Below, in pieces: positions 3,527 to 16,364 of a DNA stretch of 24,472 bases. Made by a program: the position numbers and the translations under genes. The stretch lies in the NCBI GenBank assembly GCA_013331575.1, contig DUGD01000050.1, positions 18,367 through 42,838 of the forward strand, given 5' to 3'. The notes beneath the pieces were generated by a model. The model was not told the origin of the DNA, ran no database searches, and saw nothing but the letters and a program-made list of their open reading frames with translations. Position 1 is the first letter of the stretch. Each line of letters opens with the position of its first letter. Source of the stretch: Candidatus Woesearchaeota archaeon (GTDB taxonomy: Archaea; Nanobdellota; Nanobdellia; Woesearchaeales; UBA525).

Positions 3527-5326
3527 TTACGCATCGTAGGTGTAAAGCGGCAACGGCTTGAGCATGTTGTCGAGTATGAGCTGTTGCGTCCTCTGTTCGG
3601 CTTTGTGCATGTACTTCGCGATGCGCGCAGTGTCGTGCGCGAGTTTGCCGACAAGGTGGTGCTGCGCGAATGGGATGAGTCCGTAGGCGTAGCTTTTGTC
3701 TTTTGTGAGACAATTCTTGGGCACGAGTTTCGTGGGGAATGCGTCGTAATAATTTTCCATCTTATGGGTTGCGAAATATCCACCGACAACATTCGCCGCC
3801 AATCCGATGCCTGCTCCTACGACGTACGTTGCCGGAATGACGACGAATCCTGTGCTTGCGACAAGCGCAGCGAGCACTCCAGCGCCTAAGGCGCCTGCTG
3901 CCAATCGTCCGGTCGATTTGAAGTTATTATACCAGGCTTCCGACACGTTGATGTCCGTAATCTTTTCCGGCGGCGGGAGCAATGATCCGTCTTTCGTGAT
4001 TGTGTGGCTGAAGTAGTTCTTCCCTTTGCCGTGCAGGAAAACCGTCTCTATCGTGTGCTCATGGAGTCTCGTGCGCTGGAACACGCGCGTGCCGTCAGCG
4101 GTCGCTTTTCGTATCTCCTCGCGGCGTCTCTGGACGGCGACGCTATCAAGACCATCGCCAACGACGTTCTCGAAGCATGCCTCTGTGTAGTGCAATCGTT
4201 GCAATGCATCGACGAGCCGGTCCTTGTACTCGGTATCGAGCGGTTTGTCCTGTGCGAACGCGACCTTCGCGTACTCCTCTTTGAACAACGCCTCGAGGCC
4301 GTTGATGCTTTCCGTAAGCGCGATGCCGGGTGTATCCTTTGACCGCACCTGCTCGAGCCGTCGCGCGCTCGCGAGGTCGAGCGCGGTCGTGTCCTTGCGC
4401 GAGAGCTTCTTGAGTTCACCGACTATTTCATCTACACTCTTGTACGGCTTCTTGTGGCCGTACATGCGCAGGAGGACGCGCTTGAAATCATTATCGACAG
4501 GAAGGCGTTCGACCTTCTTCTCGTCGTCGATCCTGTCCTGCTCCGCGCTAAGATGAGCTTCAGGCTTCGTGCCGTTGAACAAAAGACACGCCGTCTCCGC
4601 GAGCGCGTAGTAGTCTCTCGTAGGAGTGTGATCAGTGATGTATGGCCGTGAGTACCCGGGCGTCCCTTTGCTTGAGATGAGTGTCACCGTTCCGGCCGGT
4701 CCCTCCTCATGGAGAAGTCCGAAATCAATCATGGTGTACGTGCGCACGCCGTCCTTGATGCCAACGATGATGTTCTCCGGCTTGATGTCGCCGTGGATGA
4801 GGCGCTCTTTATGGAGCGGGCCGAGCTGTTTCTCTGTCATCTGCACGAGGAAATCGATCGTCTCTGCCGCGCTGAACCGCCGCTTCGTCGCTTCGAGGAA
4901 CTCCGCGAGGTTGACGCCCTCTGTGTAATCGCGCACGATGGCGTAGTCGATGGGATTGATCTTGAGGACTGTCGTGTCTGTGCCGAGCGCCGCGTTGAGC
5001 CGTAGGAATTGCTTGGAGAGCTGCTCGCCGAGGTCGTTGCCGTCGCGCTCGCGGTACATCTTGACGACTTTCTTCACGCCGTTCTGGTCGTGCGCGAGGT
5101 AGCTGAGCGCTTCTCCTCCTTGTCCGAGAACCTTCTCTATCTCGAGCGCAGTCCTGCCGTCGTTTATCACGGCTCCCGCGCCGAGACGGAACGTCTCGAT
5201 GGGGCTGATGAGATCATCTCTCTCTGTCCGCTGTATCGATGTCGCAGTATCCGCTACGGCGCTCCCCACGGTGCTCTGCAGCGCCTGTTGGGTTATGGGT
5301 CGTCGTGTAGCTTGTGCGAGTGTCAT
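3527..5326 (-). CDS. Ser/Thr protein kinase with C-terminal membrane region (paralogue 2)
   Basis: This 599-residue protein has a eukaryotic-type kinase domain: the glycine loop LGQGGEA (about 67-73), a candidate Lys at 89 (KVVKMY), the catalytic loop HGDIKPEN (178-185), DFG (201-203) and GTPGYSR (221-227). After the kinase comes an alpha-helical linker with several charged segments. A Gly/Ala-rich hydrophobic stretch of about 40 residues (roughly 474-515) could form a membrane hairpin. The C-terminal tail contains QHHLVGK and ends PLPLYTYDA. The upstream gene encodes a paralogue with the same layout, including MTLAQA at the start, QHHL and the PLY-Y-D end, so tandem duplication is likely. 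A Shine-Dalgarno AGGAG lies 9 bases before the ATG. The substrates and signal are unknown; it probably phosphorylates a cytoplasmic partner from the membrane. Confidence 0.9.
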   Translation of the reverse strand: MTLAQATRRPITQQALQSTVGSAVADTATSIQRTERDDLISPIETFRLGAGAVINDGRTALEIEKVLGQGGEALSYLAHDQNGVKKVVKMYRERDGNDLGEQLSKQFLRLNAALGTDTTVLKINPIDYAIVRDYTEGVNLAEFLEATKRRFSAAETIDFLVQMTEKQLGPLHKERLIHGDIKPENIIVGIKDGVRTYTMIDFGLLHEEGPAGTVTLISSKGTPGYSRPYITDHTPTRDYYALAETACLLFNGTKPEAHLSAEQDRIDDEKKVERLPVDNDFKRVLLRMYGHKKPYKSVDEIVGELKKLSRKDTTALDLASARRLEQVRSKDTPGIALTESINGLEALFKEEYAKVAFAQDKPLDTEYKDRLVDALQRLHYTEACFENVVGDGLDSVAVQRRREEIRKATADGTRVFQRTRLHEHTIETVFLHGKGKNYFSHTITKDGSLLPPPEKITDINVSEAWYNNFKSTGRLAAGALGAGVLAALVASTGFVVIPATYVVGAGIGLAANVVGGYFATHKMENYYDAFPTKLVPKNCLTKDKSYAYGLIPFAQHHLVGKLAHDTARIAKYMHKAEQRTQQLILDNMLKPLPLYTYDA

Positions 5327-5383: not shown

Positions 5384-7075
5384 TCAATCGTACTCGTACA
5401 GCGGAATCGCAGTGAGCGCGTCCTCGAGGACGTTGCCTTGCTTGCGGTGCTCGCCGTGGCGGTTCCATTCTATCCTGCGGGTAATATACTCGCTCGCTTT
5501 TCCGATGAGGTGATGCTGTCCGCCGGGGAGAAATCCGAATCCTAGTGTATCTCTTGAGTCGAGACATTTTGGATTATAATCCGCTACGAAAACAAATGTC
5601 CCGATTAGGTTCAATCCTGCAGCAATCCCCGCACCAAGCGCTGCGGTCGCTCCTATAACCATAGTTGGTCCGATAGTGAGTGCACCGACGCCGAGCGCGA
5701 CACCCGCGCCGAGTGCCGGAACCACGAGACGTCCGACTTGTTTGCCGACATAATACGCATCCTCTTTTTTCGGTATATCTTTGAACGTATCTGGGCGTGT
5801 GAATTCACCCTCTTTCTCAGTGATGACGTGCGTGAAGTACGCGGTCTTGCCGTTGTGGATGATGAATGCCTCGTTCTTGCCCTCGTGCAGGCGCTTGCGG
5901 ACGTAGACTGTGTCCGAGGTGTCCGTCGGGGCCCTGGTATAGTGTAGCTTTCCGAGTACGTTATCCAGCCGCGTGAGCAGCTCATTGTCGAGCGGTTTGT
6001 CGCGTGCGAACTTGACACCGGCGTACTCCGTCTGGAAGATGGCTTCGATGCCTTTGATTTCTTGCATGAGTGCTTCGCTCGGCTTCTCTTTCGAGCGTAC
6101 AGTTTCTATTCTCTTCGCGCTCGCTAGGTCGATCGGGACGGTCTCATTCTCAGTGAGTCCTTCGAGGTCCTTGATGAGTTCATCCGTGCTCGCGTACTTT
6201 TCGTCGTGGCCGTACATTTTCATGAGCACTTTTTTGAATTCGGCGCTCACGTTCAATCGTTCGATTTTGCCGTTGTCATCCAGTTTGTCCATCGTCGGGT
6301 CAAACTGTGCTGTGGGCTCTTTTCCGTTGATCAGGAAGTAGGTTGTCTCCGCTAGGGCGTATAAATCGTCGGTGGGGTCGTGTTTTGTGTTGAGGAGTCT
6401 GCTGTATCCGAGTGTACCTTGCGGTGCGATGAGTGTCTTCGTGCCGACAGGCCCTTCCTCGTGGATGCAGCCGAAATCGATGAGCTTGTAGGTGCGTTTT
6501 CCGTCCTGTTCGCTCACGATGATGTTTTGCGGCTTGATGTCGCCATGCACTAGTCGTTCGTCGTGAACTGGCTTGCATTCTGTGCGTGCCATCTGTAACA
6601 AGAACGCCACTGCATCGTTTCCAGTGAATGCGCGTTTCGACGCAGTGAGGTATTCTGCGAGATTGAGACCTTCCACGTAGTCGCGGATGACTGCGTGGTC
6701 GACCGAGTTGAGCCTGACGAGTTCCGCGGTCGTGCCGAGCGCTTTGTTGACGCGCAGGAGTTCGCGTGAGAGTTTCTCATGCAGGTTACCGCCATTCATC
6801 TCACGATAGATCTTCATGACTTTACGCACACCGTTGTTGTCATGCGCGAGGTAACTGATCCCTTCACCGCCCTCTCCGAGCTTAGCTTCGACCGTGTAGT
6901 GTTCATCACCTATGGCGAGTACGCGTCCCTTCTCTAGTCTGAATGTCTCCCCGCCGTCGATGATGGTTCCGTTGATTGCGAGGGCGCTACTTCTCTCTGT
7001 GATCGTTTCTAGGGTTGGCGTTGCCGGGCTGGCGAGCGGTGTTGCTAGTCTACGCTGTGCCTGTGCGAGTGTCAT
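5384..7075 (-). CDS. Ser/Thr protein kinase with C-terminal membrane region (paralogue 1)
   Basis: The 563-residue kinase has the glycine loop LGEGGEG (66-72), Lys88 (VMKIY), HGDIKPQN (177-184), DFG (200-202) and GTLGYSR (220-226), so all catalytic residues are present. A short regulatory-looking helical region follows. A Gly/Ala-rich hydrophobic stretch at about 449-497 probably makes two membrane passes. The tail has QHHLIGK and ends IPLYEYD. The ATG at 7075 is preferred over one at 7108 because the upstream ATG lies inside the TATA box, and because starting at 7075 gives the same N-terminus (MTLAQA) as the neighbouring paralogue. It is the first gene of a three-gene operon with paralogue 2 (57-base gap) and the metallophosphoesterase. 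HGD in place of HRD is common in prokaryotic kinases. The function as a kinase is well supported; the pathway is not known. Confidence 0.9.
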   Translation of the reverse strand: MTLAQAQRRLATPLASPATPTLETITERSSALAINGTIIDGGETFRLEKGRVLAIGDEHYTVEAKLGEGGEGISYLAHDNNGVRKVMKIYREMNGGNLHEKLSRELLRVNKALGTTAELVRLNSVDHAVIRDYVEGLNLAEYLTASKRAFTGNDAVAFLLQMARTECKPVHDERLVHGDIKPQNIIVSEQDGKRTYKLIDFGCIHEEGPVGTKTLIAPQGTLGYSRLLNTKHDPTDDLYALAETTYFLINGKEPTAQFDPTMDKLDDNGKIERLNVSAEFKKVLMKMYGHDEKYASTDELIKDLEGLTENETVPIDLASAKRIETVRSKEKPSEALMQEIKGIEAIFQTEYAGVKFARDKPLDNELLTRLDNVLGKLHYTRAPTDTSDTVYVRKRLHEGKNEAFIIHNGKTAYFTHVITEKEGEFTRPDTFKDIPKKEDAYYVGKQVGRLVVPALGAGVALGVGALTIGPTMVIGATAALGAGIAAGLNLIGTFVFVADYNPKCLDSRDTLGFGFLPGGQHHLIGKASEYITRRIEWNRHGEHRKQGNVLEDALTAIPLYEYD

Positions 7076-9108: not shown

Positions 9109-10272
9109 ATGCCTGCACCAAAGAATCCCGCGAAAAAGCCCCGCGTAGAACTCTACGCCCGGGAACTCGCCGATCTCTATGGCCTGCTGACGCTCCACGA
9201 TTACCTCGCTTCCCGGGAACAGGATGTCGAATTCGTCTTCAGAGCAGACTTGGGCTTCCCGCGATACCGAGAACTGCTGTGCGATCGCCCTAGCATCGAC
9301 CGTTACGCCGACTTCAACATGCAAGGCGACCTCCTTCCCGATCCGACGCTCATCATCACTCCGTACTCCGATCTGGTGCCTAGTCTGGACACTGAGATGA
9401 GGTTCTACTTCGATATCGCGATACTCAAAAACGCGGTGATGCCGCAAGCACCGGATGCGAAAACGCTCCTTCGCGAGCAGCACGGTATCGCATCGGACCG
9501 CCCGGTGCTCTTGCTCGCAAGACCTGAGCAGGAAGAGGCGCTTGCGAATAACGTCGCGAAAGCGCTGCGTAATGACGCGCGTGTGATCCTGTATGGAGAT
9601 GCCGATTACACGCCGCCGCGCGATGTCAGGCGCAACTGCGAGGTCATCTACGGCCATGGTCTGCTCGCCGAGATGTACGCGCTCGCGGACGCCGCTATCG
9701 ATTGCCATATGCTCGCGCCCATGAACCGGTCATTGCATAATTTCGTCGAGGCCACCGCGGGCGGCCCGCTCTTTGCCATCGCTCCCACGCATGGCGGAGG
9801 ACAGTACGGTTATCGCGATCTCATCACCGCAGGGGCTATCCGTGAATTCCAGACCGTCCCCGATCTTATCGGCGCCTTACGCACGTACGTCAACGATTCG
9901 TCGGATGCGTTGAAGATCGCGGCGCGACGGACGGCGCACCTCGTGGGGACGCGCGATCGATATCTCCCTGTCGCTCATGCGGTGATGCGCAACCTCCTGG
10001 GCCGCAAGACCAAGGTGCCCGCAAGCGACCTGGAGGCGGGAGTGTGCTCTATGTCTCCGACCGTCACAGTCTTGCACTCGGAGAGCGGATGGCGACGGTT
10101 CGAGGCATTCGATCGGCAGATCGATCTTTCGATGATACATCGACGTAATCCTTTCTCGGCGTATTGGATACCGCGATTCGGTGTCGCTTCCAGCAAACAC
10201 CCGGACAAGCATTCGTCTACTATGATCATGCCGTCCGCGAAAGCGAGTTGGCCTGTGATACAGAACGCTTAG
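9109..10272 (+). CDS. GT-B-type glycosyltransferase-like protein, Kdo-transferase-like C-terminal half
   Basis: This 387-residue soluble protein has a Rossmann-type C-terminal half. It contains RPVLLLARPEQEE (131-143), ARVILYGDADY (157-167) and EVIYGHGLLAEMYALADAAID (178-198). These are followed by SLHNFVEATAGGPLFAIAPTHGG (208-230), which aligns in pattern with the nucleotide-sugar-binding end of GT30-type (WaaA/Kdo transferase) enzymes. The N-terminal half is shorter than in those enzymes and is poorly recognisable. Typical GT30 enzymes are over 400 residues and act in lipopolysaccharide synthesis, which archaea lack, so the substrate must differ. The ATG at 9109 is preferred over the in-frame ATG at 9076, because a TATA box (TTTAAATA) overlaps the first codons of the longer version and sits 22 bases before 9109. 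It stands alone downstream of the MITE-like element. Confidence 0.6.
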   Translation: MPAPKNPAKKPRVELYARELADLYGLLTLHDYLASREQDVEFVFRADLGFPRYRELLCDRPSIDRYADFNMQGDLLPDPTLIITPYSDLVPSLDTEMRFYFDIAILKNAVMPQAPDAKTLLREQHGIASDRPVLLLARPEQEEALANNVAKALRNDARVILYGDADYTPPRDVRRNCEVIYGHGLLAEMYALADAAIDCHMLAPMNRSLHNFVEATAGGPLFAIAPTHGGGQYGYRDLITAGAIREFQTVPDLIGALRTYVNDSSDALKIAARRTAHLVGTRDRYLPVAHAVMRNLLGRKTKVPASDLEAGVCSMSPTVTVLHSESGWRRFEAFDRQIDLSMIHRRNPFSAYWIPRFGVASSKHPDKHSSTMIMPSAKASWPVIQNA

Positions 10273-10302
10273 TTGTTTCTGCGATATCGGTCTTTTAATT
10301 TA

Positions 10303-10545
10303 GGAGTACCTCGTGCTTCAGCTCGAGGGTGAACGCGAAGGAGAGCAAAGCTCTCCTTGCGCAAGAAATCTCTGATTTCTTCGCGCCTTGGAGTATATCC
10401 AGAAATCGTGCCGATTCGCTCGGAAGCAGCGGCTTCCGGCGCCCCGACAACAAGTTGTCGTGGGTATGCAGGCACGATTTCGTATGTTCACGGAACGGAG
10501 TGAGTTAAATGCTCCGCGTTCATCGAGTTGAGTAAATGATACTCC
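10303..10545. ncRNA. Candidate structured RNA or palindromic element with nine nested helices
   Basis: No protein-coding sense is visible, but the whole segment folds without conflicts. P1 is 10303-10308 with 10540-10545, P2 is 10318-10326 with 10523-10531 (one G-U pair), and P3 is 10329-10334 with 10486-10491. H1 is AAGGAGAGC/GCTCTCCTT (10338-10358, loop AAA). H2 is 10359-10386 (AAGAAATC/GATTTCTT plus GCGC/GCGC). P4 is AAATCGTGCC/GGCACGATTT (10403-10412 with 10471-10480), enclosing H3 (10421-10438) and H4 (10442-10464). H5 is 10493-10521. I do not recognise known RNase P, SRP or riboswitch signatures. The strand is unknown, and a cruciform-forming repeat insertion is an alternative. Confidence 0.45.
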
Positions 10546-10549
10546 AGCT

Positions 10550-10795
10550 TTGGTCCGGGAGGATTCATCTGAGATATTAGCAAGGGTAACTGTTGTCGAT
10601 GAGCGAACGTTACTCCCCTATCTTTCTCAGGCAAAGGACGTGGTTGTCTCGTTTGACCCAAAAGACGCTGCGTTCGTTGCCTGCGCGCTCGCGACAAGAA
10701 GTGTTGTATGGAGCGATGATGGACCACTGCATGACAAACAGAATGTAATAAAGGTACTCAACACAGCAGAGATGCTGGAGCTAATCAGTCAATAA
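10550..10795 (+). pseudogene. C-terminal half of a PIN-domain (VapC-like) toxin
   Basis: About 80 residues remain. FDPKDAAFVACAL (35-47) and SVVWSDDGPLHDKQ (51-64), followed by VIKVLNTAEML, match the second half of PIN domains, including two of the four acidic metal ligands (Asp39, Asp56). The N-terminal half with the first Asp is missing. An in-frame TGA lies at 10529-10531, and the preceding 240 bases form the multi-helix element. No convincing start codon or ribosome-binding site is present; TTG at 10550 is only the first possible codon. The 3' end runs 11 bases into the convergent top6A stop. It is most likely a decayed toxin gene, broken by or next to the structured element. Confidence 0.65.
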
Positions 10796-16220: not shown

Positions 16221-16364
16221 TTACTTCTTCTTGCTTGCTGCGGCGGATATGCTGCTCTTCACATCGCAGGGTGTAGTCGCGCCCTCGCATGATGGCTGCG
16301 CCGCTGCTTGCCATGCTCGGGCGCTTTGCGTGGTGCCAAGGCAGCATTCCTGGTGCGGTGCCAT
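16221..16364 (-). CDS. Possible small Cys-containing protein (47 aa)
   Basis: A short open frame runs from ATG 16364 to TAA 16221 between atpD and top6B. The product has four cysteines (two adjacent near the N-terminus, then PSCEG and TPCDV) and ends SISAAASKKK. A Lys-rich end is also seen on top6B in this window. An in-frame TAG lies 24 bases upstream of the ATG. No Shine-Dalgarno or TATA box is visible at the usual distances, so it could be chance in a GC-rich gap. The rest of 16190-16421 shows no gene. Confidence 0.2.
   Translation of the reverse strand: MAPHQECCLGTTQSARAWQAAAQPSCEGATTPCDVKSSISAAASKKK

Follow-up and report, generated by a model that had tools for sequence, protein, structure and literature searches.

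A nested palindromic segment beside a PIN-domain remnant in Woesearchaeota: evidence for a probable non-autonomous mobile DNA element

The window analyzed here is a stretch of 24,472 nucleotides from the genome of a Candidatus Woesearchaeota archaeon (G000, called the own genome below). Beside a truncated PIN gene it holds a 243-nucleotide segment in which a sequence-only reading found helices packed closely together, and for which two explanations were offered: a large structured RNA of unknown class or an inserted palindromic element. Which of these accounts for the segment, and how did so many helices come to lie in so short a stretch of DNA?

A dense palindromic segment and its parts

Folding energies confirm that the helices exceed what chance would produce. 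The plus strand of positions 10303–10545 folds at −119.3 kcal/mol, whereas 200 dinucleotide shuffles have a mean of −75.6 kcal/mol (sd 4.4; z = −10.0) and none folds as low. For the minus strand, the same comparison gives −111.6 kcal/mol and a z value of −9.8. The helices had been described as one mutually nested set, and they do exist. However, the outermost stem (GGAGTA/TACTCC) is impossible in the simple paralogues L004–L006, whose 3′ side has GGATACC and whose right end folds as a separate hairpin. The right boundary also had to be shifted from 10545, as the element runs to about 10568 and the stretch 10538–10568 aligns, with several mismatches, with the right-end hairpin of the paralogues. 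The features of the window are listed below, where R1 is a covariance model of the core and A1 is an alignment of 31 cores.

10303–10568, plus strand: the complete element, a single member of the family (aligned with L004, L005, and L006 of the own genome; the 5′ edge is uncertain by about 5–15 bases)
10309–10328, plus strand: left end (LE), a possible hairpin CCTCG..CGAGG that is like IS200/IS605 left ends (23 distinct own-genome motif copies, including that of the window)
10330–10336, plus strand: 5′ arm of P1, TGAACGC, partner 10516–10522 (fold; covariation over 31 cores)
10337–10386, plus strand: module A, an inserted double hairpin (missing from L004, L005, L006, L010, L011, L012, and L017)
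10387–10393, plus strand: CTT and the 5′ strand of P2, GGAG, partner CTCC at 10512–10515 (R1 match, E = 7e-15; alignment A1)
10402–10412, plus strand: 5′ arm of P3, 11 bp, partner 10471–10481 (covariation)
10417–10464, plus strand: module B, another double-hairpin insert, which occupies the conserved loop of P3 (comparison with copies without it)
10471–10481, plus strand: 3′ arm of P3 (fold, covariation, R1)
10489–10502, plus strand: P4 region, CAC..GTG (short hairpin in several paralogue folds; alignment A1)
10510–10522, plus strand: 3′ strand of P2 and 3′ arm of P1 (fold, covariation)
10538–10568, plus strand: right end (RE), a mismatched hairpin with terminal TTCAT (alignment with L004–L006)
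10550–10795, plus strand: PIN-domain remnant (Pfam PF10130, PIN_2; E = 3.5e-11, profile positions 62–115 of 133)
16227–16355, minus strand: a further, diverged family member whose P3 insert is longer (window search with R1, E = 4e-4; fold)

Four of the hairpins first noticed belong to two inserted double-hairpin blocks, modules A and B. Module A consists of hairpins at 10338–10358 and 10363–10381 joined by the linker GCGC (10359–10362), and it is flanked on both sides by CGC (10334–10336 and 10384–10386). Module B has hairpins at 10421–10438 and 10443–10464, again joined by GCGC (10439–10442). If 10337–10386 and 10417–10464 are removed, the window copy is identical to L004 and L005 at 126 of 130 positions each and to L006 at 125 of 130. 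At the site of module B, the seven copies that lack module A read GATTTATGCA or GATTCATGCA. Without both blocks the remaining 169 nt fold with a z value of −4.9, compared with −8.6 for the full 10303–10569 (100 shuffles each).

Copies of these pieces are abundant in the own genome, where a search with 10290–10560 returned 77 matching pieces on many contigs. In the short copies, three of these pieces are joined directly, and the window copy has the two extra blocks. Insertion goes further in L002, an own-genome copy in which modules A and B are accompanied by three or more additional inserts: one inside a module A hairpin, one at the module B junction, and a compound one further on. Judged from these sequence comparisons, the segment is dense in helices because of nested insertion, in which smaller double-hairpin elements entered a simpler element. 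An unfilled orthologous site was sought within the genus and none was found; a search with PIN gave matches in two of eight relatives (G002 and G007), whose frames were uninformative. In three other own-genome copies (L035, L042, and L046), P3 is swapped for an unrelated hairpin, GGCGCGAG..CTCGCGC, with much of the remaining core retained.

The PIN gene is indeed truncated beside the segment, as had been claimed. Its PIN_2 match lacks the first 61 profile positions and begins at residue 8 (base 10568), which is the right end of the element. On the left flank, a 398-aa frame with no Pfam match ends at 10272, about 30 bases before the element. The missing half of the PIN domain was probably deleted rather than displaced, and perhaps it was lost together with the insertion. 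Such a loss is unexpected from a simple IS200/IS605 insertion and therefore counts against a mobile-element reading of the segment.

The ends of the window copy are imperfect. The RE is mismatched, and the LE hairpin is one of two pairing options, as bases 10309–10328 have an alternative pairing with the 3′ side and both pairings appear in folds. No target duplication is seen at this copy. The RE is damaged, and the element is probably dead.

Elsewhere in the window, the diverged element at 16227–16355 has CTTGGCA where others have CTTGGAG. Six loci of another genome, G304 (L229, L222, L235, L234, L226, and L219), are larger multi-hairpin relatives in which one hairpin has a P3-like loop, TGATTYATGCA, and some of them read CTTGGCA..TGCCG. 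The window also contains a direct repeat, 71% identical between 4652–4807 and 6404–6559, in neighboring long minus-strand frames of 599 and 574 codons; this is perhaps a tandem duplication.

A conserved core with covarying helices

A P3-loop pattern search of one genome per GTDB species returned 35 stretches, of which 34 are titled Woesearchaeota; the other comes from a Bacteroidales bin and its fold is unlike the element. When the stretches are aligned with the own-genome copies, a core of about 111 nt emerges that comprises the P1 arms, CTT, P2 (GGAG/CTCC), an 11-bp P3 with the loop GATTYATGCA, and P4. Eight of the 35 stretches (L075, L078, L080, L087, L092, L093, L098, and L101) failed a stricter core pattern, which gave 37 matches, or 36 without one duplicate. 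Alignment A1 holds 31 of these 36 and excludes three near-identical own copies (L006, L010, and L012), a minus-strand copy in L097, and L099.

A lack of compensatory changes and energies within the shuffled range had been named as grounds for refutation, and on both points the result is the opposite. Across the 31 cores, standard pairs occupy 93.8% of pair cells compared with 69.3% after shuffling, where the free positions are mainly P1 and the inner five P3 pairs; the P3 loop with its ends, TTTCG, and parts of CTTGG and CTCCG were prescribed by the search patterns. Cells in which both partners depart from the commonest pair number 227 versus 71.7 in shuffled data, with related copies counted repeatedly, as in all pair counts here. 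P4, whose placement varies in A1, is omitted from these counts.

The pair changes are mostly from one Watson–Crick pair to another. Over all 27 pairs, A1 has 777 Watson–Crick cells, 8 GT cells, and 17 AC cells. For a second alignment, A2, made of 67 matches fitted to the model and overlapping A1 in copies, the numbers are 1522, 43, and 26, respectively; distinct cells amount to 26 GT and 19 AC (binomial p = 0.053), which leans to RNA. A control with 16 of 23 distinct tRNA genes, taken from fetched sequence, gave 8 GT and 1 AC. By Fisher's test A1 differs from this control (p = 0.006), whereas A2 does not (p = 0.15). The GT excess of A2 comes largely from the outer pairs of P1 in G000, at which a single state recurs among related copies. 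Broken down by part, A1 has 6 GT and 7 AC cells in the nine pairs of P1 (0 and 4 in the outer three), 1 and 5 in P2, and 1 and 1 in P3. The corresponding values for A2 are 29 and 14 in the whole of P1 (6 and 5 in the inner eight pairs), 1 and 5 in P2, and 13 and 7 in P3.

These data bear directly on the possibility that the family is a multi-copy structured noncoding or cis-regulatory RNA whose helices selection preserves in the transcript. The 31 cores covary strongly and have strand-specific conserved loops, as such an RNA would, and the predominance of GT over AC in A2 points the same way. However, AC outnumbers GT in A1, opposite to the tRNA control. Because wobble pairs are not clearly favored, covariation does not alone imply RNA. 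That it is mostly of the Watson–Crick type hints, although it does not prove, that pairing may be maintained in DNA. The Rfam results also weigh against an RNA: the whole window has no match at curated cut-offs, and six other family loci have no relevant match at E values up to 1.

The distribution of the core is patchy. R1 detects it in 18 of 352 genomes of the order, spread over several families, in a search whose filters lose weak matches; the 334 genomes without a match at the threshold used argue against an RNA. Among 371 genomes sampled evenly across the phylum, nine have the core, and all nine belong to the same order. Where present, it is numerous. Six genomes, the own genome first, contain at least 55, 39, 73, 30, 73, and 38 copies, which are lower bounds from 150 candidates scored per genome. 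Viral contigs gave no match to one exact pattern and plasmid records gave none to the window copy as query, and viral or plasmid carriage was rejected.

In the stretches read, cores tend to lie outside open frames, which favors a mobile-element reading. Overlap with an ORF proxy is below 10% for 33 of 38 cores in G259 and for 15 of 29 in G000, but for only 8% of random stretches. In G259, 17 of 21 cores (L173–L192) have the same orientation as their tandem neighbor genes, which is also explicable by RNA and so counts against a mobile-element reading, but in G000 this holds for just 6 of 10. Moreover, transposon ends enclose the core, and inserts of 48 to about 104 nt are tolerated within it. 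We consider an RNA quite unlikely. As the main reading, the large structured RNA lacks support, given the lack of an Rfam match, the patchy multi-copy distribution, the transposon ends around the core, and the tolerance of large inserts.

Transposon-like shells and double-hairpin units

Many own-genome cores lie between the left end and a right hairpin of the form ATACC..CTTTAG..GG..TTCAT. In the own-genome sequence examined, 23 LE and 13 RE motifs represent these IS200/IS605-like terminal hairpins. The left flanks are T-rich, with TC.T at −16 in 9 of 23 and at −12 in 7 of 23. The relatives G008 and G006 have a Y1 transposase gene that appears to be damaged, with an RE of the same type after it (L068 and L069).

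An RE behind a Y1 gene would also be expected if an IS200/IS605 element had left behind an OMEGA-type guide RNA locus, the partner of TnpB, and the right end resembles those of IS605-type elements. This explanation is highly improbable. The TnpB zinc ribbon PF07282 has no match in five genomes, whereas 6 of 14 control genomes are positive, and elsewhere the core lies in inverted-repeat shells. An OMEGA RNA of TnpB was rejected for lack of a TnpB match in these five genomes.

The other shells have GG..CC inverted repeats and exact 9-bp direct repeats. A script requiring both found them in 5 of 115 flank pairs (L187, L161, L114, L131, and L145, of which L161 is from the own genome), compared with a mean of 0.02 and a maximum of 1 in a shuffled-flank control. 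That only 5 of 115 cores pass is a point against the mobile-element reading. Two more cases, L115 and L174, were recognized by eye; the script had rejected the repeat of L174 for its low complexity. In a scan of 111 flank pairs, duplications of 5, 6, 7, and 9 bp occur 2, 3, 4, and 4 times versus control means of 1.15, 0.5, 0.1, and 0.1, respectively, and shorter target duplications around the cores were rejected. Both scans are approximate in that loci L105–L152 longer than 2900 bases were assumed to match at 1501–1612.

Candidate sources of these shells are present in G259, which has two DDE_Tnp_1 insertion sequences with GG..CC ends. They measure 1018 bp (L209, 1076–2093) and 1076 bp (L212, 1073–2148), contain open frames 306 and 324 codons long, and are flanked by repeats of 9 bp with one mismatch and of 8 bp, respectively. 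Their terminal repeats resemble those of L174 (G259) and L145 (G038). We take GG..CC terminal repeats and 9-bp target duplications to be features of IS5-type elements (IS903 group). The core-bearing elements of G259 differ from such insertion sequences in being about 140–155 bp long and lacking a gene.

The own genome, which is about 75% complete, has no match to Y1_Tnp, the TnpB zinc ribbon, or DDE_Tnp_1, the three families searched, which weighs against a mobile-element reading. Y1 occurs in 6 of 18 genomes that have the core and in 12 of 30 that lack it, about equal shares, and general mobilization of the core by Y1 is unsupported. Because the core lies in both IS200/IS605-like and GG..CC inverted-repeat shells, it seems from these sequences that two unrelated kinds of transposon have carried it.

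The inserted blocks form a class of their own. In all loci then examined, 90 oriented pairs of adjacent hairpins, or about 45 units counted on both strands, have mirror-image bulges. In 69 of the 90, the left 3 nt are complementary to the linker at an offset of exactly 1 nt (the bulge), whereas offsets of 0, 2, 3, and 4 give 0, 2, 1, and 1 matches, and 2000 permutations of the linkers average 17.1 matches and never exceed 27. These scans contain multiple copies of a single insertion and are weighted toward G000, which contributes the most sequence; G000 supplies 60 of the 69 matching rows, and the rest come from G003, G006, G038, G040, and G279. A scan for strictly perfect hairpins found few adjoining pairs because of the 1-nt bulge. 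In the alignment of double hairpins, A3, left arms are misplaced.

The flank triplets of the 69 matching pairs are CGC (34), CAC (7), TAC (5), GCC (5), TTC (4), TGC (4), and others. At the foot of P1, the triplet belongs to the core, and five different units lie there: two at TGC with the linker GCAC and three at CGC with GCGC. In the P3 loop, CGC comes with the unit itself, and for this reason the linker–flank rule is partly plain hairpin structure. At the ends of IS200/IS605 elements, a tetranucleotide located 5′ of the hairpin is described as a guide (PMC6006769). By analogy, the target-derived flanking nucleotides at some sites suggest that base pairing may help to choose the insertion site.

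Complementarity between linker and flank would also be explained if replication errors, namely template switching at palindromes, grew the hairpins on the spot without a transposase. The complementarity across several different flank triplets fits this origin, as do the mostly Watson–Crick covariation expected from palindrome correction and the lack of matches for three transposase families in the own genome. However, units at unrelated sites are alike in sequence, for example in purine-rich 5′ arms such as AAGGAAAGC, and apparently descend from a common source; the core also recurs in several families of the order. We regard template switching as an unlikely origin.

Dispersed copies, precise insertions relative to paralogues, and target duplications at some other copies support the suggestion of an inserted palindromic element. 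We think it likely that the segment is a palindromic, non-autonomous mobile DNA element whose shells are moved in trans and whose units of about 48 bp nest into the core and into each other. The core of about 110 nt would ride inside shells that have either IS200/IS605-like ends, as in many own copies, or inverted repeats with 9-bp duplications, as in some others. Transposases of two classes would have moved these shells in trans; what is seen are the ends, the duplications, and the insertion sequences of relatives, from which we infer the movement. The units, each made of two bulged hairpins in mirror orientation with a linker of usually 4 nt, would insert at loops and junctions of the core and into each other. 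Pairing of the linker with the flanking 3 nt on the far side of the 1-nt bulge may take part in the choice of site.

A bolder version, which we offer only tentatively, is that the core is a transposon parasite, a hairpin that enters unrelated mobile palindromes at their middle and travels by means of any transposase that mobilizes them. The units might then be minimal single-strand transposons in which the 4-nt linker is a target-pairing DNA guide, and the palindromes would grow by guided insertion.

Known systems and biological meaning

Non-autonomous derivatives of IS200/IS605 elements are known as PATEs and are counted among the MITEs. The elements described here share with MITEs and PATEs the lack of a gene, the transposon ends, the many copies, the often intergenic location, and the presence of like-ended insertion sequences in relatives. 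They differ in that one conserved core is common to shells with two kinds of ends and in that smaller palindromic units insert repeatedly.

REPINs and BIMEs are also close to the units. REPINs are described as pairs of inverted hairpins in which compensatory changes are common, and E. coli REPs are described as bulged (PMC3116915, PMC8266576). As far as these accounts describe them, the two systems have in common with the units here (about 45) two inverted hairpins per unit, compensatory changes, and hairpins related to IS200/IS605 ends (PMC3116915, PMC8266576). Compared with REPINs and BIMEs with RAYT as set out in the same accounts, the units here have variable stems, a shared linker complementary to the flank, and self-nesting (PMC3116915, PMC8266576). 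The REP tag GTAG/GTGG is absent among the flank triplets listed for the 69 matching units, and a search of G000 (about 75% complete) for a RAYT (Y1) gene gave no Y1 match.

Double-hairpin elements and palindromic repeats of organelles, as characterized in one account, are likewise short hairpins dispersed in noncoding DNA (PMC2670323). Palindromes of the Volvox plastid are described there with the motif TCCCCTTTAGGGA, whose CTTTAG tip is like that of the right-end hairpins here (PMC2670323). Relative to the organelle elements of that account, the present case differs in its archaeal genome, its filled and unfilled sites at base resolution, and its conserved carrier core (PMC2670323). Among the titles listed by searches of an open-license PMC library, none described such a layered system.

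The family carries a caution for the interpretation of structured sequences, in that strong covariation need not mean RNA. For Woesearchaeota, it represents a layered, apparently mobile DNA system. It provides natural filled and unfilled sites for hairpin insertion at base resolution, together with a testable rule for pairing between linker and flank.
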